Positions 46,142-55,648 of a stretch of 64,000 bases of DNA are shown piece after piece; position 1 is the first letter of the stretch, and every line of letters begins with the position of its first letter. The position numbers and the translations under genes were made by a program. Source of the DNA: Phycisphaerales bacterium (GTDB lineage: Bacteria; Planctomycetota; Phycisphaerae; Phycisphaerales; UBA1924); NCBI GenBank assembly GCA_029260345.1, contig JAJDDK010000006.1, positions 372,001 to 436,000 on the forward strand. The letters are read 5' to 3'. Below the pieces are notes generated by a model. The model had not been told where the DNA came from. It was given only the letters and a program-made list of their open reading frames with translations, and searched no databases.

Positions 46142-49100
46142 TTACGGCAGGTATGCGCTGCCGCCGCGCTGCAATGCCAATTGCCCGGCGCTGAAGCGAT
46201 CGCGCGAGAGTGAATTGCGAACGCGATCGGTCGGGCCGCCCCATGGGCGGAACCGAATGCTGAATGCGAGATCACTGCGCAGGTCGTCGTAATCAAATCC
46301 CATCTCAAGGGTCCATTGCGGGAATCGGCGGTGCACTTCGAGTCCCACGGATTGCACAGACGTGTCCTCAAGATCGAACACCGCTGCGGCGGCGAGGGCG
46401 TAACGTTCGGACAATTCAAGCGAACCGCCGATGTTGAGGAAGGTGCTGTCGAGCACGCCCGCGTCGAGACGGCGCAACTCTGCGAAGGTCGTGAAGCCGT
46501 AACCGTGGTCGATCAAGCCGCCGATCGATGCGGTGTCGAGCGTTGAGTTCTCGGTGTCGTAGATGACGGAGCCGACGACGCCGATGGCGTCTGTGAGTTG
46601 AAGCGTGGCGTCCGCCGCCGCGAACTGACCGAATTGCGATTGTTCCGGACGTGATTCGAAGAATCGCCCGACGGCGGAATCGCGTGTGGTGTCGCTGGTG
46701 GCGTAGACATATTCAGCGCGGAGAACGAGCCAGTTCACGTTGCGCCAGGCGCCCGGGCCGCCGCGCTGCGTTTGCAGCGTGCTGGTCAAGCCGACGCGGA
46801 ACGCCGTGCCTTCACTGATTGATTCGACAGACTGGTCGTACACGGGGAGCGACTGCGAATCGATGTTGCTCGTGCCGCTCCAGATCGTGGCGCTGGGTTC
46901 GATGATGTGACGCAGCCGGTGCAGGTCGAACAGATCGGATTCGACGTTGTTGTACACGCGGTTGAACGCGGTCGAGATTGTGATGCCGGCGGCGCCCCAC
47001 CAGCGGGTTTGATCGTCATCAGAGAAGCCGTTGGCCGTGCGGTATTCCTCGAAGTCGTTGCTGTAGAGCGTGAGGCGACCTACGGCGAACGGCATGATGC
47101 GCACGGGGCCGACGTCCAGCGGCAACATGATTTCGTGACGTGAATCGAATCGCGCGACGGTGTCTTCGTTGTACCCGTCAGCGCGAAGCCGGTCCGCGAT
47201 GGATTGGTTGGGATTGATGCCGAACGCCGCCTGCGAGAGCGCCGGAGTGGTGAAGCCGAAAAGATTGACATTCGGCTCGTTGAGCGACTGGTTGAGAAGA
47301 CCGGCGCGAGTTTCACTCGTATAGCTCAGGCGACCGCCGAAGAATGAATCACCGAGCCGCCAGTACGAAAGTTCCGGGAATCGCTGCACCTGATAGCCGC
47401 GGCTCTGGAAGAGAAACTCATTCGGTGTGAAGTCGTCAATCGAGCCTTGGGCTTGTGCGAGGAAGTAACTGTTGTCACCGCGGTAGGAGAGCGCGGCTCG
47501 ATTCGTCAATTCTCGCCCGACTTCGGCAAGCGGCTCAAAGAACGAATCGACGAAAGCGACGTCGGAGATGTAGGTCCCTTCCAGCGCAAGCGACCAATTC
47601 TCGTTGATTTGCCACATGTGCTCTGCGAGCACCATGCCGCGATTCTTGTTCTCTGGTTTGCGTTCTTCGCCGGTGGAGAACGTGTCCGTGCCATCGTCAT
47701 AGATGTAGTACGCGAACAATTTGCCGAACGCTTCGGGCGTGGCCCAGTCCAGGTCAAGACCGCCGGCGGGGCCGCGATCGAAATAGCCGTCAATGAGAAT
47801 GTCGCCACTGAGCGCGTCATTGGCATCGAGGCCGAAAAGCCAGTCAATATCCCAGCCAGTCTTGATGATGCCGTTGCCGTCTCTGCTTCCGACGCTCACC
47901 GAAGGCACGCGGAAACGTTCAACATCGATGGCCGTGCCGGGGATCGGAAGCACGGTTGTGTCGCCGAGCTTCAGCGATATCTGCCGCGCATCCACCACAA
48001 CGCGCGAGGACCCGTCGGCGCGCCGATCCTGCGTCATCTTCACGTCTTTGGCGCCAATGGACAGATGCGGATTGGCGAATCCGACGTTGGAGAGCTTGGC
48101 CGCGTTGGCTGTCCACTGTCCGAGCGCTTCCTGACGGATGATGTCGGCACGCACGTAGAGCGGCATGCCGATCTCGTCGTTGTACGCATAGAACACGGCG
48201 TCCATGACGGCGGCGCGATCATTGCGAACGTCGTAGAAGATACGCGGGCCGCGCACGGTGTATTGACCGTCGGTGGCGATGACGTTTCCTTCAAGGAAGA
48301 TGCCGCGCACTTCACCGGGGCCGACTTCGACGATGTCCGCGACGGAGCCCGGATCGAGAAAAACGACGGCGTTTTGCGCGGTGAGCTGCACGGTGCGATC
48401 GGCGTCGAGGTCGGTGTATTGCACGACGACGCCGCCGGAGATCACCAGCGCGTTTTCTTCTTCACCGGTGATAAAGGTTCGGTCGGGGGCGTGCAGCGTG
48501 ATAACGCCGCGATTGGGAAAGATCGGCGCATCGGGATCGAGTGGCGCCGCGGCGCCGGCAGGCTCGAAAAACGACCGATCGACATAGTCAAAGCCCGCAG
48601 TGACCGCCGGTGTCGCGCCATCGGTCATGAGGGCCGACAAGCGGCGCGCGAGGCGATTCTCCGCTTCCGAAAGGAATGGTTCATTGGTGGGCGCGCCCTG
48701 ATCCAGCAAGTCCACGCGCAATCGAACATCGCCCGTGACCGTCGCCGTGACGAGCAGGCGGCGCGCGGCTTGGGCGAAACGCGCTGACGCGAGCGGTGTG
48801 CGCACGTTGTCGAAGTAGAACGCCAACTGCCACACGCGCCGGCCATCAACCTGGCGCGGCTCAATCCAGATCGCCGCGTGATCTGCGACGAGGTCGTACA
48901 CACCGATGCGCACGCGGACATCGCCTTCGAGGAGGAGTCGGCGCGCTTCGCCGTCTTTCCAGGCCCACCCGCCACGCGCTTGAATGACCGCGTCGCCTTC
49001 TTGTGCGTTGGTTGGGAGTTGAAGCCCAGCGAAGTCCCGGCCGGTGATCAGGTCAAAGTCACCGTCTTGGGCATTTGCATTCGTGCATAGCGTGAGCGCG

Positions 49101-49183
49101 AAAAAAAAGAGGGAAGCGAAGCGAACAACGCAGCGCGTGCGTTGTGGTGCGGCAGCCGAAATCCGTGGCTGGAGCCTCGCCAT
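46142..49183 (-). CDS. lptD: LPS-assembly protein LptD-like outer-membrane barrel
   Basis: A 1013-residue exported protein. After the signal peptide (RFASLFFFALTLCTNANA) comes an OstA/LptA-like N-terminal repeat region to about 480. GGVVVQYTDLDADRTVQLTA and VIATDGQYTVRGPRIFYDVR are typical of the jellyroll domain that carries LPS. A long C-terminal beta-barrel follows, with alternating strands and aromatic-rich motifs (LEGTYISDVAFVDSFFEPLA; LFDLHRLRHIIEPSATIWSG). The protein inserts LPS into the outer leaflet. With lpxB it supports a lipid-A-type outer membrane. It lies 78 bases after the CDP-alcohol transferase gene on the same strand. Confidence 0.85.
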   Translation of the reverse strand: MARLQPRISAAAPQRTRCVVRFASLFFFALTLCTNANAQDGDFDLITGRDFAGLQLPTNAQEGDAVIQARGGWAWKDGEARRLLLEGDVRVRIGVYDLVADHAAIWIEPRQVDGRRVWQLAFYFDNVRTPLASARFAQAARRLLVTATVTGDVRLRVDLLDQGAPTNEPFLSEAENRLARRLSALMTDGATPAVTAGFDYVDRSFFEPAGAAAPLDPDAPIFPNRGVITLHAPDRTFITGEEENALVISGGVVVQYTDLDADRTVQLTAQNAVVFLDPGSVADIVEVGPGEVRGIFLEGNVIATDGQYTVRGPRIFYDVRNDRAAVMDAVFYAYNDEIGMPLYVRADIIRQEALGQWTANAAKLSNVGFANPHLSIGAKDVKMTQDRRADGSSRVVVDARQISLKLGDTTVLPIPGTAIDVERFRVPSVSVGSRDGNGIIKTGWDIDWLFGLDANDALSGDILIDGYFDRGPAGGLDLDWATPEAFGKLFAYYIYDDGTDTFSTGEERKPENKNRGMVLAEHMWQINENWSLALEGTYISDVAFVDSFFEPLAEVGRELTNRAALSYRGDNSYFLAQAQGSIDDFTPNEFLFQSRGYQVQRFPELSYWRLGDSFFGGRLSYTSETRAGLLNQSLNEPNVNLFGFTTPALSQAAFGINPNQSIADRLRADGYNEDTVARFDSRHEIMLPLDVGPVRIMPFAVGRLTLYSNDFEEYRTANGFSDDDQTRWWGAAGITISTAFNRVYNNVESDLFDLHRLRHIIEPSATIWSGTSNIDSQSLPVYDQSVESISEGTAFRVGLTSTLQTQRGGPGAWRNVNWLVLRAEYVYATSDTTRDSAVGRFFESRPEQSQFGQFAAADATLQLTDAIGVVGSVIYDTENSTLDTASIGGLIDHGYGFTTFAELRRLDAGVLDSTFLNIGGSLELSERYALAAAAVFDLEDTSVQSVGLEVHRRFPQWTLEMGFDYDDLRSDLAFSIRFRPWGGPTDRVRNSLSRDRFSAGQLALQRGGSAYLP

Positions 49184-49261: not shown

Positions 49262-49939
49262 TTACTTCGATTGCGAGCGAAATTGCCATGCGGACGTGTC
49301 CGCAGCGGCGCCGACACGATTGACCTCACGGACGGAACTCATCAGCCCGAACAGAAGCTGTGCGACGCCAAGAATGGTGAGTGTCCAGAGGCTCCAAAGC
49401 GCCAGCCGCGTTGGGGCGAGGTCGGTGGCATGGGCGATCGCGATCGCAATGCCGAGCAACGTCAGCAGCGTCTTGAATTCTGTTGGTCCGAATCGGGCGA
49501 GTCTGAACTCACCAGTGAGTTTGGCGCGGATGCTGGTGAGGACGGCTGTGGCGTAGACCCAGAGGACGCATGCGAGTGCGAGCGGCAGATGCCCTGCCGC
49601 GACGCCGAGGCCGATCATCCAGTAGCTGAAGGAGAGCGGGTCGAAGAAATGGTCGAGCAGTTCACCGCCATTGCGGCACTGGTTCGTGGCTCGCGCGTGT
49701 GTGCCGTCGATCATGTCGCAGAGGTGGTTGCCGGCGACGCCCGCCGCCGCGATCAGCCCCGCCCACCAGTATCGTGTTGAGAACGCGAAGCCGAAGGCGC
49801 CGCCGATTGCGATGAGGTGCCCGAGCACGACGAGGCCTTCGGGCGGGAAGCGACGCGGAATCGGAAGGGCGCGGTACAGCGCGGGCACACACGGCGCCAG
49901 CCAAGGGTCGAGCACGCTATGGGACACGCGGCGAGACAT
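49262..49939 (-). CDS. CDP-alcohol phosphatidyltransferase family protein
   Basis: A 225-residue integral membrane enzyme of phospholipid headgroup synthesis. The CDP-OH-P motif (D-G-x2-A-R-x8-G-x3-D-x3-D) is intact in DGTHARATNQCRNGGELL followed by DHFFD, within helix 2 of about six. It transfers a phosphatidyl or sugar-lipid head group from a CDP-linked donor; the acceptor alcohol is unknown. ATG 49939 (MSRRVSHSV) is preferred; a longer frame overlaps the divergent fusion gene. It is upstream of lptD and divergent from the glycosidase-kinase gene, so it may share its promoter region. Confidence 0.88.
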   Translation of the reverse strand: MSRRVSHSVLDPWLAPCVPALYRALPIPRRFPPEGLVVLGHLIAIGGAFGFAFSTRYWWAGLIAAAGVAGNHLCDMIDGTHARATNQCRNGGELLDHFFDPLSFSYWMIGLGVAAGHLPLALACVLWVYATAVLTSIRAKLTGEFRLARFGPTEFKTLLTLLGIAIAIAHATDLAPTRLALWSLWTLTILGVAQLLFGLMSSVREVNRVGAAADTSAWQFRSQSK

Positions 49940-50102: not shown

Positions 50103-52361
50103 GTGGCAAGGTTAGTCACCCGCGATTATCAGCGTGAATCCGACGTGCGCATCGGCCCCTCCGAAGTTGCGGAGTGTCTGGTGAGGTGCGCTTGTTTTCT
50201 TGTGCGATTTGGACTTCGTTTGCACGGATCGCATTCCCCGCCGCGCGGGCACATCGTCCCAGACTCGTTTGTGGGCATTTGTGTCGCGACATCGCCTGAC
50301 CCGGCGTGCGGCGAATACATCGTGCGTCAGTTGCGAGAAATCGGCGTCACGCATGTGCGGCTGGATTATTCCTACGGCAGCGAAGCCAGGCAAACGGCGA
50401 GGTTTCTTGACCTTCTGCTGAACAACTCTTTCGCCGTGCTCCTTCATTTGGTTCAGCCTTTTGAAGAAGCGCGAGCGATGGACACACCGAAGGCGCAGCG
50501 GCGCTGGAGCGCATTTGTCGATACGACGCTGGATCAGTGGGGGGATCGGATTGATTCGGTGGAGATCGGCTCTGCGGTGAACCGGCGCAAGTGGGCGGGA
50601 TACACGTCTGAAACGTTCTCGACGGCGTGGCGCATTGGGCACGATGTTGCGCGACGACACGATGTGACGCTGGTCGGTCCGAACGTGAACGACTTTGAGC
50701 CGATGTACAACATCACGTACTTGTGCCGCATGCGTGCGGCTGAGGCGCTGCCGGATGTGCATTCCAACAATTTGTTTGTTGAGCGCGCGGTGGAGCCGGA
50801 GCGGTACGACCACAAAATTCTTGGTCATTCGTTGGCGCCGCTGACGAAATTCAACACGATCAAAAAGGCGCGGCTCCTGCATTGCGTGTCCGAATCGGTC
50901 GGCGTCAATGAGACGTGGTCTACGCACGTCGCATGGAGCGGGCGGCGCATTGATCGTGTGCTTGCGGATGTGCGCGAGAAACAGGCTGATTATCTGGCGC
51001 GGTACTACCTGCTGACAGCGGCTTCCGGGGCGCTGGCAAGGGTGTACTGGGGACCGATGATCGGGCAGCGTGAGGGGATCATTGACGATGGGACAGATGA
51101 GTATCCCAGTGATTTTCCGCGCGCCTTTATCTATGAGCATGTGTACGGCGAGGTGAGCGATTATCGCGTGCTGCCGGCGCTGCACGCGATGAAGACGTTT
51201 GCGAATCTCATTCCCGGAATGCGGTACGACGGCGCGCTGTCCAGTTCTTTCGGGCTGGAAATGCACGCGTTCAGCGATGAGCGCGGCGTGGTGCATGCGC
51301 TCTGGACGATGAACAGTCGAGGGGCGGAGCTTTCCGATCTGTATTCAGCGCACGACATTGCGGAAGCGAAGTGGTTGAGCCGCGATGGGGAGACGTTGTC
51401 GGAGCCGCCGCCCATGATTTCGCACTCGCCGGTGTATGCGGTGTGGCCAGCCGAGCGGCAGATTGTTGTGAAACCGAAGGCGAAGACGATTGCTGACCTT
51501 GTGATGGATGATCCGGGACATGTGTATCGCGAGGGCGAGTGGCGGGGCGTGGTCGCGGCGGCGACGACGGAGGAACGTGATCGACTGCTTGCGGTGATTG
51601 GGCCGCGCGTCGTGAAGGAGGCGAAGCGGCTGAAGACGCTGCGCGATGCGCGCAACACGGTGTGGTGCATTGAAGATCCGCTGAACCCCGGCGAGGCGCT
51701 GGTCGTGAAGCGGTGGCTGCTCAAACCATTGCACAAGCGGGCGCTGGATTCCTTCAAGCCGTCGCGAGCGCGGCGGAGCTGGAACGGCGCGAGCGAATTG
51801 CTGCGCCGGGGTGTGGGCACGCCGCGACCGGTGGCGTTTTTTGAGCATTCGACGCGGGGTGTGCTGAAGGAAAACTTCTACATCTGCGCGTTCACCACCG
51901 GCGGGCTGACGGTGCGGAGTTTCTTCACGGCGTACGGCAAGGGGCAGGGCGAGTTTGAGGGCGTGCCCGCGACGAAGTTTTATGAGAAATACGCGGATTT
52001 CCTGATCGACATGCACCGGCGCGGCGTGCATTACCGCGATATGTCGCCGGGGAACATTCTTGTTGAGATGTGCGACGGCGGCGAGTTGCGATTCCTGATG
52101 GTGGACACGACGCGTGCACGGTTCTTCGAACGCCCGGCGACGGTGCGACAGAGCCTGTCGGACCTGAAGCGCACGTGCCACCCGCTGCACTGGGAAGGCC
52201 GCAAGGAGTTCGTGGGGATTTATCTTGAAAAGCGCGGCGAGGAGTTCACGCCGCTGCGGCAGTTGCCGTTTGCGCTGTACGATCACAAGCAGCGATTCAA
52301 GAATCGCACGAAGAAATGGCGGCAGGGGCTGCGGTCGCTGGTGTCGCGGTCTCCGGGATGA
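50103..52361 (+). CDS. Glycosidase-like TIM barrel fused to WaaP/Kdo-type lipopolysaccharide kinase
   Basis: A 752-residue protein with two parts. Residues about 50-460 resemble a clan-A glycosidase barrel (FVGICVATSPDPACGEYIVR; HVRLDYSYG; WGDRIDSVEIGSAVNRRKWA; VSESVGVNETW). At the usual Asn-Glu acid site the sequence reads SA, so the acid is not conserved. Residues about 490-740 resemble LPS heptose/Kdo kinases: the Lys in EALVVKRWLLKP, the catalytic loop GVHYRDMSPGNILVE at about 640-654, and the metal-binding MVDTTRARFF near 665. GTG 50103 has GGGAG upstream. It is translationally coupled to the GNAT gene. A role in glycolipid phosphorylation is inferred. Confidence 0.75.
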   Translation: MARLVTRDYQRESDVRIGPSEVAECLVRCACFLVRFGLRLHGSHSPPRGHIVPDSFVGICVATSPDPACGEYIVRQLREIGVTHVRLDYSYGSEARQTARFLDLLLNNSFAVLLHLVQPFEEARAMDTPKAQRRWSAFVDTTLDQWGDRIDSVEIGSAVNRRKWAGYTSETFSTAWRIGHDVARRHDVTLVGPNVNDFEPMYNITYLCRMRAAEALPDVHSNNLFVERAVEPERYDHKILGHSLAPLTKFNTIKKARLLHCVSESVGVNETWSTHVAWSGRRIDRVLADVREKQADYLARYYLLTAASGALARVYWGPMIGQREGIIDDGTDEYPSDFPRAFIYEHVYGEVSDYRVLPALHAMKTFANLIPGMRYDGALSSSFGLEMHAFSDERGVVHALWTMNSRGAELSDLYSAHDIAEAKWLSRDGETLSEPPPMISHSPVYAVWPAERQIVVKPKAKTIADLVMDDPGHVYREGEWRGVVAAATTEERDRLLAVIGPRVVKEAKRLKTLRDARNTVWCIEDPLNPGEALVVKRWLLKPLHKRALDSFKPSRARRSWNGASELLRRGVGTPRPVAFFEHSTRGVLKENFYICAFTTGGLTVRSFFTAYGKGQGEFEGVPATKFYEKYADFLIDMHRRGVHYRDMSPGNILVEMCDGGELRFLMVDTTRARFFERPATVRQSLSDLKRTCHPLHWEGRKEFVGIYLEKRGEEFTPLRQLPFALYDHKQRFKNRTKKWRQGLRSLVSRSPG

Positions 52362-52900
52362 CGGCGCCGGTTAAGCAATACCGAATCGGTCCGAAGACGG
52401 ATCGGCTGATGCACCGCGCGATGACGATTGACGATGCGGCGGCGTTCTACGCGCTGAACAGTCATCCGGAGGTGATGCGCTACACGGGCGAGCCGCCGCT
52501 GCGATCGGTGGATGAAGCCCGCGACGTGATCGCGGCGTATCCGGATTTCGACACGCACGGGTTCGGGCGATGGGGGTGTGTGCTGAAGGACACCGGCGCG
52601 CTGATTGGCTTTTGCGGGCTGAAATATCTGGATGAGCTTGGTGAAGTTGATGTCGGGTTTCGGTTCCTGCCCGAGTATTGGGGGCGCGGCTTGGCGACGG
52701 AGGCGTGCCGCGCTTGTGTTGATTTTGGGTTTGAGAGGATGGGTCTGAAACGAATCATCGCGTTGGTGCTGCCGGAGAATTTGGCTTCGATTCGGGTGCT
52801 GGAGAAGGTTGGGATGCGGTTTGATGGGGAGGTGGGGTATGAGGGGATTGTGGCGCTGCGGTATGTGGTTGAGGCGGCGCGTGGTGGCGAGAAGAGGTGA
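52358..52900 (+). CDS. GNAT N-acetyltransferase (RimJ/RimL type)
   Basis: A 180-residue acetyltransferase. GPKTDRLMHRAMTIDDAAAF, YPDFDTHGFGRWGCVLKDTG, VGFRFLPEYWGRGLATEACR (acetyl-CoA motif R/Q-x-x-G-x-G/A as GRGLAT) and VLPENLASIRVLEKVGMRF are the RimJ/RimL-family pattern. These enzymes acetylate proteins or small amines; the substrate is unknown. ATG 52358 overlaps the stop of the fusion gene (ATGA), implying a two-gene operon. The upstream partner suggests a surface-glycan or lipid modification. Confidence 0.88.
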   Translation: MTAPVKQYRIGPKTDRLMHRAMTIDDAAAFYALNSHPEVMRYTGEPPLRSVDEARDVIAAYPDFDTHGFGRWGCVLKDTGALIGFCGLKYLDELGEVDVGFRFLPEYWGRGLATEACRACVDFGFERMGLKRIIALVLPENLASIRVLEKVGMRFDGEVGYEGIVALRYVVEAARGGEKR

Positions 52901-53038: not shown

Positions 53039-54226
53039 ATGCAATCAACAACCAACATCCCGCTTGACGTTTCAGATTCAGGTCGAATGCTCAGAGTAAA
53101 ATGGGTATATGCGCGCCTCATCGTCGTGTTCGGAATATGCACGTCAATTTCTATCAATGGCATGACTGGCGCATGGTTTGAAGCAATTCAGGTTGCCCTT
53201 GGTGGGATCGTTGCGATCATTGCTTCCCATTTCATTCACGTCTTCCTCAAATCGATGAGTACTGCCGCCAGAAGACATTCTGGACATCAAGATTTTGGAT
53301 TCACGGATCGGCCGTATGTCGGACCCTTTTTCATTCCACTTCTTGTGCTGTTTTCAGCAGTGCTCCTCTACTTTCAAGGAGTCGCGATTGGCTTTGCGCC
53401 GCATGTTGGCGCTAGCATCGCTGCGGTAGTTTCGAGTGTGCTTGCGCTCCTGGTGTTTTCTCAGCTCGATGATTCGGCCAAGTGGGCAGATGCGACCCAT
53501 GCCGCGTGTCTGTGTCCGGAATGCGGACTGAATTCACAAAATTCAATTGATCGTCAAAGATCCTGGCGCCATCGGATTTTCTCTCGCGTAGTTGCAGCAT
53601 CCAACTTGGGCATTCTTGGCCTACTCCTTGCTGCTATTGTCGTTCGATCGATGAACTTAAGAACTGCGTTCCCGCCGCAAATCCCTCATCGAGTGCCATT
53701 TGGGCCTCACATGGCCGACGAGCTCGAAATCGATCCAGATTCAGATCCGCCGCATGTGCGATTGTCCAGAGGAATGAGCGGATGGTCGGAGAAGGAATCT
53801 CTTATTGGCATCGCATCGGGTGATGAAGTTGATGAAATTGTTTTTCGCCATGGCGGAACAATCATGGCTCAAACTCACTGCATGATGGGCGTTTATTTGG
53901 GCTCATACCGATCGTATGAGTTAGTTCGTCCAAATGGTCGTTCTGATGACTTGCTGATCTGGTCACCAGACGTCATTGATGCAAAGACTTCAATTATGCA
54001 ACGAGATGATGAACTCAATTTCGTTTGGCTAAATAGCTTCGGAAATTCATTGCAATGTCTTCAAATTAACGTATTTGCGATCATGTCGCTCGGCGTGCTG
54101 AGCATTATCGTTTCTGCCACGGCCGGACAAATCAGTGTGCTATTTGTCTACATTCGCGCAAAAAGACGCGAATCAAAGGGGCTCTGCCCTCAGTGTGCTT
54201 ATCAGCTCACGAGAGCGCACGATTAA
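53039..54226 (+). CDS. Zinc-ribbon membrane protein, atypical composition
   Basis: A 395-residue membrane protein with about six hydrophobic helices (LIVVFGICTSISINGMTG, IQVALGGIVAIIASHFIHVF, IPLLVLFSAVLLYFQGVAIG, VSSVLALLVFSQL, ASNLGILGLLLAAIVVRSM, IMSLGVLSIIVSATAGQISV). It also carries two Cys pairs (CLCPECGLNS near 158 and CPQCAYQLT at the C-terminus), similar to zinc-ribbon ends seen on planctomycete membrane proteins. The DNA is visibly more AT-rich than its neighbours and a cloverleaf repeat precedes it, hinting at recent acquisition. No function was recognised. Confidence 0.75.
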   Translation: MQSTTNIPLDVSDSGRMLRVKWVYARLIVVFGICTSISINGMTGAWFEAIQVALGGIVAIIASHFIHVFLKSMSTAARRHSGHQDFGFTDRPYVGPFFIPLLVLFSAVLLYFQGVAIGFAPHVGASIAAVVSSVLALLVFSQLDDSAKWADATHAACLCPECGLNSQNSIDRQRSWRHRIFSRVVAASNLGILGLLLAAIVVRSMNLRTAFPPQIPHRVPFGPHMADELEIDPDSDPPHVRLSRGMSGWSEKESLIGIASGDEVDEIVFRHGGTIMAQTHCMMGVYLGSYRSYELVRPNGRSDDLLIWSPDVIDAKTSIMQRDDELNFVWLNSFGNSLQCLQINVFAIMSLGVLSIIVSATAGQISVLFVYIRAKRRESKGLCPQCAYQLTRAHD

Positions 54227-54296: not shown

Positions 54297-55562
54297 TCAC
54301 GTCCACGTATCCGCCGCCTTCGCCTTTTCCGGTGTCGCCGCGTGCGGCATGTGGCCGTTGCCCTTTTCCAGCCCCGGGAAATGCTCGCCTTCCCAGCTCT
54401 TGGGGTAGGCGGGGTCGTCCATGGCGAGGGCTTCTTTGGTCGGGAAGAGCGGGCGGAAGGTGTCGCACATGACGGCGAGTTCGGCGGTGTGCGTCGCTTC
54501 GAGTGAGGCGAGGATGGTGCCGGGGTGCGGGCCGTGGGGGATGCCTTGCGGGTGCGCGGTGATGGAGCCGACTTCGATGCCCTTGCGCGAGCCGAAGTTG
54601 CCTTCGACGTAGTAGAGCACTTCGTCGGAGTCGATGTTGGAGTGGTTGTAGGGAACCTTGATCGCGTCGGGGTGATAGTCCAGCATGCGCGGGCAGAAGG
54701 AGCAGATCACGAAGTTGTGCGCTTCGAAGGTCTGGTGCACCGGAGGCGGCTGATGCAGTTTGCCGGTGATGGGCGCGAAGTCATCAACGTTGAAGATGTA
54801 GGGGTAATAGCAACCGTCCCAGCCGACGACGTCGAGGGGATGGTAGGGGTAGTGGTAGGAGTGCATCTGGTCGAGGGCTTTGACGCGGACTTCGAACTCG
54901 CCGCGCTCGTCGAAGGTGAGGGGGAGTTCGGGGAGGCGCAGGTCGCGCTCGCAATAGGGCGAATGTTCGAGGAATTGCGAGGTCTGCTTCGAGAGATAGC
55001 GCGGCGGCGGTGCGATGTGTGAGGCGTTGACGGTTTCGATGACAAGGAAGCGCGGCTCGGGCTCGCCCTTCTTGGTCTCGTCGAACTTCATTTCGTAGAT
55101 CACACCCTTGGGGATGATGATGTAATCCTTGGGGCCGAACTTGAGTGTGCCGAACATCGAATGCACGACGCCCGTTCCGAAGTGAATGAAGATGCACTCA
55201 TCGCCCATGCCGTTCTTGTAGTGGTACGTCATGGGATCAACAGGCGCGCAGATCGACATGCGGCAGTCGGCGTTGCCGAAGAGCACGGTGCGCCCGGTGA
55301 TGGGGTCGCCCTTGGGCTTGGCGGGCATGGTCTTGAGGTGCCGCATGCGCATCACACCGGTTTCGACGTATTCGGGTTTGGTGGAATACATCGGCTCCCA
55401 GCCGGCGACCTGCGTCGGGGGATGGATGTGATAGAGCGTGCTGGTGGGGCCTACGAAACCCATGGTTCCGAAGACTTCTTCGGAGTAGAACGCGCCGTCG
55501 GGACGACGGAACTGGACGTGGCGCTTTCTCGGCAGGTTGCCAAGCTTCGTGTAGTACGGCAT
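54297..55562 (-). CDS. hmgA: Homogentisate 1,2-dioxygenase
   Basis: Iron-dependent ring-cleaving enzyme of tyrosine/phenylalanine breakdown, making maleylacetoacetate. The 421-residue protein has cupin-like halves. The metal-binding histidines and Glu sit in VPYNHSNIDSDEVLYYVEGN and VGSITAHPQGIPHGPHPG, and EFEVRVKAL with YHYPYHPLDVVGWDG is typical. ATG 55562 (MPYYTKLGNLP) is preferred over 55577. Other tyrosine-catabolism genes are not adjacent. It is convergent with the zinc-ribbon gene. Confidence 0.93.
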   Translation of the reverse strand: MPYYTKLGNLPRKRHVQFRRPDGAFYSEEVFGTMGFVGPTSTLYHIHPPTQVAGWEPMYSTKPEYVETGVMRMRHLKTMPAKPKGDPITGRTVLFGNADCRMSICAPVDPMTYHYKNGMGDECIFIHFGTGVVHSMFGTLKFGPKDYIIIPKGVIYEMKFDETKKGEPEPRFLVIETVNASHIAPPPRYLSKQTSQFLEHSPYCERDLRLPELPLTFDERGEFEVRVKALDQMHSYHYPYHPLDVVGWDGCYYPYIFNVDDFAPITGKLHQPPPVHQTFEAHNFVICSFCPRMLDYHPDAIKVPYNHSNIDSDEVLYYVEGNFGSRKGIEVGSITAHPQGIPHGPHPGTILASLEATHTAELAVMCDTFRPLFPTKEALAMDDPAYPKSWEGEHFPGLEKGNGHMPHAATPEKAKAADTWT

Positions 55563-55648
55563 GAGACGTATCCCCAAACGGTCTGGTGATGACTAATGAA
55601 TCGCTCTTCAGGCGATTGTAGCCCCGGGGGACGCGCGCGTCGGGTGAT

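Follow-up and report, generated by a model that had tools for sequence, protein, structure and literature searches.

A catalytically degenerate GH39-like barrel coupled to a WaaP-like kinase in Planctomycetota and Verrucomicrobiota: a candidate lipopolysaccharide-core kinase

A gene of a Phycisphaerales bacterium encodes, in a single chain, a barrel descended from GH39-like glycosidases and a kinase of the WaaP family. The kinase has a complete catalytic set, both glycosidase glutamates are gone from the barrel, the two domains are coupled repeatedly in other genomes, and several of these couplings stand among lipopolysaccharide (LPS) genes. The gene lies at 50103..52361 on the + strand of the window, by which is meant the whole analysed stretch of 64,000 nucleotides (GenBank assembly GCA_029260345.1, contig JAJDDK010000006.1, positions 372,001 to 436,000). 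The best explanation, favoured with somewhat better than even confidence, is that the protein phosphorylates the LPS core in the cytoplasm and that its pseudo-glycosidase part binds the core oligosaccharide and offers it to the kinase; the kinase chemistry and the LPS context are the well-supported parts of this explanation. Before the nascent LPS core is exported, the WaaP-type kinase would phosphorylate one of the core's sugars, with ATP as donor, on the cytoplasmic side of the inner membrane. The GH39/PslG-derived barrel would no longer hydrolyse glycosides, and its retained pocket would bind the core oligosaccharide and hold the acceptor sugar at the kinase site. We infer that the barrel binds glycan without catalysis, that barrel and kinase act on the same molecule and that the acceptor sugar is a core heptose or Kdo.

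The preliminary description of this DNA, made by reading the letters, had proposed one 752-residue frame with a glycosidase-like region and a WaaP/Kdo-type kinase region, and the open reading frame, Pfam and AlphaFold all agree with it. The frame opens with GTG; the true start is uncertain and may lie about 10-30 codons downstream. The full-length AlphaFold model, computed from five input sequences (the window protein and four homologues), contains a full (beta/alpha)8 barrel, whose strands run from 57-61 to 313-316, then a beta-sandwich ending at about residue 448 and the kinase from residue 472 to ~748, with weak loops at residues 226-250 and 318-355 (pLDDT <50). The barrel with its C-terminal beta-sandwich occupies residues ~47-449 (50241..51449, +) according to the model, Foldseek and alignment, and the kinase domain occupies residues 472-752 (51516..52358, +) according to Pfam, the model and residue conservation. 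The sole Pfam match in the fusion is PF06293 (Kdo/WaaP kinase) at residues 535-691, with 25.8 bits against a cut-off of 21.3; the Pfam search of residues 1-480 returned no family and no glycosidase model. The fusions have no transmembrane-like stretch ahead of the barrel, which, taken together with the ATP dependence of such kinases, points to a cytoplasmic site at the inner membrane. Homologues carry the two domains either in the order of the window protein (barrel-kinase), in the reverse order (kinase-barrel) or as adjacent genes.

Searching the PDB by sequence, whether with the fusion protein or with a profile of 16 barrels, gave zero glycosidase matches, so the barrel had to be compared by fold. 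Its best PDB matches, obtained with Foldseek and VIA-align, are the GH39 structure 5jvk (Z 26.5, rmsd 3.1, 345 residues) and PslG (4zn2), the latter with Z 25.1 and rmsd 3.3 over 350 residues. The modelled window barrel thus has the GH39-type (beta/alpha)8 barrel with C-terminal beta-sandwich, and the clan-A glycosidase fold expected for the N-terminal half is found when that half is tested separately from the kinase.

The fate of the catalytic residues was read by way of a GH39-like protein from the same order as the window's genome (L054:316-2028, genome G398). This protein retains both catalytic motifs, WNEPN and TE, behind a leader-like N-terminus and is possibly an image of the barrel's ancestor. 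It aligns to PslG with an E-value of 3.5e-11, and its two glutamates, counted along the alignment, fall on PslG Glu165 and Glu276, which are the acid/base and the nucleophile, respectively (PMC11912335). The barrel family profile matches the same protein with an E-value of 2.6e-10 and places S157-A158 (50571..50576, +) on the Asn-Glu of WNEPN, the general acid/base site at the end of beta-4, and H275 (50925..50927, +) on the Glu that serves as nucleophile at the end of beta-7. In the window barrel, A158 therefore stands where GH39 has the acid/base Glu (PslG Glu165) and H275 where it has the nucleophile (PslG Glu276). The replacement of Asn-Glu by SA had been noticed earlier and is upheld by this alignment to an active-type protein; the replacement of the second catalytic Glu is new. 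Across the 58 aligned barrels, the acid/base position is always A, T or G (58/58), and at the nucleophile position all barrel-kinase proteins (11/11) have His and all others (47/47) have Glu. The barrel is a descendant of GH39-like enzymes that fails the defining catalytic residues of the family, and the label GH39 hydrolase is unsuitable for it. A compensatory swap from R88/E275 to D88/H275 was considered and dropped, since the beta-2 alignment near residues 86-88 permits a two-residue shift.

The pocket of the barrel has been conserved. Positions with a conservation of 90% or more across the 58 barrels are enriched at the C-terminal strand ends, which form the catalytic face (enrichment by an odds ratio of 4.3, p 5e-4, with strand limits taken from the AlphaFold model), and include Q118, N160, R161, K163, W164, D197, E199, R228, W278 and W316. 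Their concentration on this face argues that the pocket is kept and not decaying. The barrel alignment defines two motifs in it: the family-invariant NRxKW motif after beta-4 (N160-R161-R162-K163-W164, 50580..50594, +) and the near-invariant DFE motif after beta-5 (D197-F198-E199, 50691..50699, +). Nine residues distinguish barrels of the barrel-kinase type from the others, and eight of them also sit at strand C-terminal ends, a pattern that suggests a change of ligand in this type, not decay.

Such conservation also raises the possibility, doubtful but the main rival to the binding role, that the barrel is still an enzyme whose chemistry has moved to N160-R161-K163, D197-E199, R228, K255 and D328, together with E275 or H275. 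The protein could then be a bifunctional LPS-core enzyme, its barrel acting as a glycosyltransferase, a transglycosidase or a hydrolase of an activated (e.g. phosphorylated) sugar. The charged cluster is (nearly) invariant in the 58 barrels from two phyla, which is more than a lectin site would seem to need, and the kinase-barrel and split forms, all 47 of which keep the nucleophile-position Glu, might still be catalytic. Glycosidase relatives that lack the acid/base, such as the myrosinases, can act on substrates with a good leaving group. This enzymatic reading is weakened by the absence of the acid/base Glu from its canonical position in every member, by the further loss of the nucleophile in the window's subfamily and by Pfam, which recognises no known transferase family in the barrel. 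A bolder form of it, speculative and rather improbable, would make the barrel an enzyme class evolved from GH39, in which the invariant Arg/Lys/Asp/Glu cluster catalyses another reaction (e.g. sugar transfer) on the LPS core alongside the kinase, as one conserved family making a distinctive core in Planctomycetota and Verrucomicrobiota.

The gene neighbourhoods of relatives bear on the identity of the glycan. In seven Verrucomicrobiota loci, lpxK, heptosyltransferase II and GT2 genes lie upstream of the fusion on the same strand; these loci fall in about three tree branches and so are not independent, the neighbour counts are raw, and only some of the homologous loci lie in an LPS-core operon. 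The representatives scored exceed their NCBIfam cut-offs, at 193.5 versus 92 bits for lpxK and 190.1 versus 134.6 for heptosyltransferase II. Two loci have lpxK, GT9 and a MurJ/Wzx-like flippase downstream of the fusion, five more have GT2 adjoining or near it, and another set of five has an MsbA-like transporter within 1 kb (the representative's best NCBIfam match is MsbA, below the cut-off). In the Kiritimatiellae loci L037 and L038, a GT4 gene abuts the fusion and a second Kdo/WaaP kinase is nearby. As separate observations, a CPBP/Rce1-like intramembrane protease gene (PF02517, scored on L146:6806-7762) is found in eight loci (L146, L116, L117, L118, L124, L125, L129 and L149) immediately ahead of the kinase-barrel fusion or a short distance from it, six of these loci having the lpxK - heptosyltransferase neighbourhood, and the kinase and barrel gene pair of two split-form loci (L044 and L048, genomes G186 and G353) adjoins a gene that by eye resembles ligA (NAD-dependent DNA ligase), not LPS genes.

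It is unlikely that the partner glycan is a different cytoplasmic lipid-linked glycan, such as an exopolysaccharide or glycolipid, in place of the LPS core. The flanks read at many fusion loci contain no LPS-core gene, a MurJ/Wzx-like flippase is nearby in four loci, and PslG, which serves the Psl exopolysaccharide pathway, is among the closest solved relatives of the barrel; however, lpxK and heptosyltransferase II, which are specific to LPS, are among the most regular neighbours. The preliminary description had likewise proposed that a clan-A glycosidase-like barrel lacking its catalytic Asn-Glu may bind or position a glycan for phosphorylation by the LPS-type kinase. The GH39 ancestry, the glutamate losses, the pocket, the coupling and the LPS operons fit that proposal; its choice of a surface glycan fits less well, the nascent cytoplasmic core being the more likely ligand.

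The kinase domain, modelled alone, has WaaP (6dfl) as its best structural match, with a Foldseek E-value of 9.9e-12, three orders of magnitude better than that of the next match, and Z 16.0 and rmsd 4.5 over 229 residues. Alignment identifies K536 (51708..51710, +) as the ATP-binding lysine corresponding to WaaP K51, D646...N651 (52038..52055, +) as the catalytic loop with the HRD Asp (WaaP D163) and the metal-binding Asn, D668 (52104..52106, +) as the DFG-type metal-binding Asp (WaaP D188) and the following R671 as the substrate-binding WaaP R191. All five residues are present in nearly all of 54 homologues, and mutation of K51, D163, D188 or R191 in WaaP abolishes growth (PMC6147952). The lysine, the HYRD...N motif and the Asp of the MVD motif, earlier read as intact, are so (K536, HYRD646, N651, D668), and Pfam and Foldseek identify the C-terminal half, tested separately, as a WaaP-type kinase. 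By PF06293, catalytic residues and fold the domain belongs to the WaaP family, and by the NCBIfam equivalog cut-offs it is neither KdkA (14.6 bits versus 142) nor RfaP (11.9 versus 170). It probably phosphorylates an LPS core sugar.

Since WaaP, Bud32 and Rio kinases share a fold, and Bud32/Rio protein kinases with this WaaP-like fold come next in the structural match list, the protein could instead be a Bud32/Rio-like protein kinase with the barrel as a glycan sensor, that is, a protein for envelope-glycan signalling. Several other PF06293 matches in the window's genome sit in long frames and are probably Ser/Thr kinases, which would agree with such a role. This is nevertheless quite improbable: WaaP ranks first by both sequence family and structure, relatives lie in an operon with lpxK, heptosyltransferase II and GT2, and the protein has neither a transmembrane-like stretch nor a further Pfam domain.

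Full-length homologues at 39-59% identity occur in Kiritimatiellae, in another Verrucomicrobiota lineage and in one other planctomycete, which excludes chance as the origin of the fusion. The barrel is present at E<1e-50 in at least 62 of 388 sampled Verrucomicrobiota genomes, a lower bound obtained by scoring the best five candidates per genome; the 388 genomes are those of the phylum of L037, and the Verrucomicrobia genome of L039 is included. Every barrel in the 45 loci read, among them L041 from a planctomycete, has a WaaP-like kinase as its partner, in 33 loci as a kinase-barrel fusion, in 10 as a barrel-kinase fusion like that of the window and in 2 as adjacent genes, kinase then barrel. 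Planctomycetota show all three arrangements, with the barrel-kinase form in one other genome among 392 sampled, the kinase-barrel form in family f21 and the adjacent separate genes in family f17. At L050 and L051, the barrel has no neighbouring kinase gene and a kinase match lies on another contig of each genome, and L052 was rejected as a split form as its contig ends inside the gene. The occurrence of the same two domains in fusions of opposite order and as a gene pair is Rosetta-stone evidence that they work together.

The main groups are the same in the kinase tree as in the barrel tree, and the barrel-kinase type forms one side of a branch with a support of 99-100 in both. In kinase-barrel fusions (e.g. 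L117, L125 and L136), a conserved linker, DIWIWDERSxQA, joins the two domains; a similar stretch, WxxxPWxxxSxQP, opens the separate barrel genes at the N-terminus of the split barrels L044-L051, and a linker of this kind is absent from the barrel-kinase type. These sequence features suggest that kinase-barrel fusions and separate barrel genes arose from one gene pair. An ordinary gene fusion without joint function, or an assembly error, can hardly be the explanation: the fusion is absent from other sampled genomes of the window's family, but dozens of separate assemblies carry it, in both orders and with the same groups in both domain trees, which rules out an assembly artefact.

The window copy belongs to a rare subfamily. 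In both the barrel and the kinase tree, two Kiritimatiellae proteins join the window protein in a group with a support of 100, and neither fusion nor barrel was found in the other sampled members of the window's family. Given this grouping and this absence, the window copy was likely acquired by horizontal transfer. The fusion gene carries no compositional sign of transfer (GC 0.608, window mean 0.607), and the acquisition is likely old enough for its base composition to have faded.

Several known systems resemble parts of the fusion. WaaP (RfaP) and KdkA share with it the kinase fold, the ATP-binding Lys, the HRD Asp, the DFG-type Asp, the substrate Arg and the company of LPS core genes, but they are stand-alone proteins of ~240-270 aa, whereas the fusion kinase is joined to or stands beside a GH39-like pseudo-glycosidase. 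PslG and GH39 enzymes share the barrel with beta-sandwich (Z 25-26), profile homology and recognisable motifs on the active-site strands; the fusion family differs in lacking the acid/base Glu, in its new invariant NRxKW and DFE motifs and in its coupling to a kinase. Beta-Klotho, which is among the fold matches of the barrel, is a GH1-derived receptor in which a glycosidase barrel without catalytic residues serves as a binding module; it belongs to another GH family, acts at the animal cell surface and has no kinase in its chain, so the likeness is an analogy only. AgaSK of Ruminococcus gnavus also has a glycosidase and a sugar kinase in one chain, an alpha-galactosidase domain described as hydrolytic and fused to a sucrose kinase (PMC7688924), whereas the barrel studied here is catalytically degenerate and its context indicates LPS, not a dietary sugar, as the substrate. 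No description of the fusion or of this pseudo-glycosidase family was found in the literature searched, most subscription journals lying outside its scope. Some Gram-negatives cannot maintain their outer membrane barrier without phosphorylation of the LPS core, and as far as was searched no description of this phosphorylation was found for Planctomycetota and Verrucomicrobiota. The recurrence of the coupling in both phyla suggests that these bacteria build their outer membrane in a way not yet described. If the binding role proposed for the barrel is true, the family would clearly exemplify how a biosynthetic pathway can take up a pseudoenzyme to recognise a glycan, and would offer a handle on the LPS core of both phyla.

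In the window itself, the stop of the fusion overlaps the start of a GNAT acetyltransferase gene (52358..52900, +, Pfam) in the sequence ATGA at 52358-52361, as had been described. The other neighbours named at that stage, identified by Pfam, are present, both on the strand opposite to the fusion: a divergent CDP-alcohol phosphatidyltransferase gene (49262..49939, -, with an open frame to 50119) and lptD (46142..49183, -). The idea that lptD, the CDP-alcohol transferase and the GNAT gene form a conserved functional block with the fusion has to be given up, as the surroundings of the fusion contain 0 homologues of these genes at 45 other loci. The CDP-alcohol transferase gene itself occurs in 2 of 25 relatives, with no lptD beside it in the short flanks read in those two. 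The window fusion does not lie within an LPS-core operon; the genome carries LpxK, KdtA and two GT9 genes, so Kdo-lipid A can be made. Further downstream, a 395-aa frame at 53039-54226 (+) has a GC content of 0.49 and a GC3 of 0.47 against a window average of 0.61 and was probably acquired recently, and a frame at 54297-55577 (-) resembles homogentisate 1,2-dioxygenase by eye.
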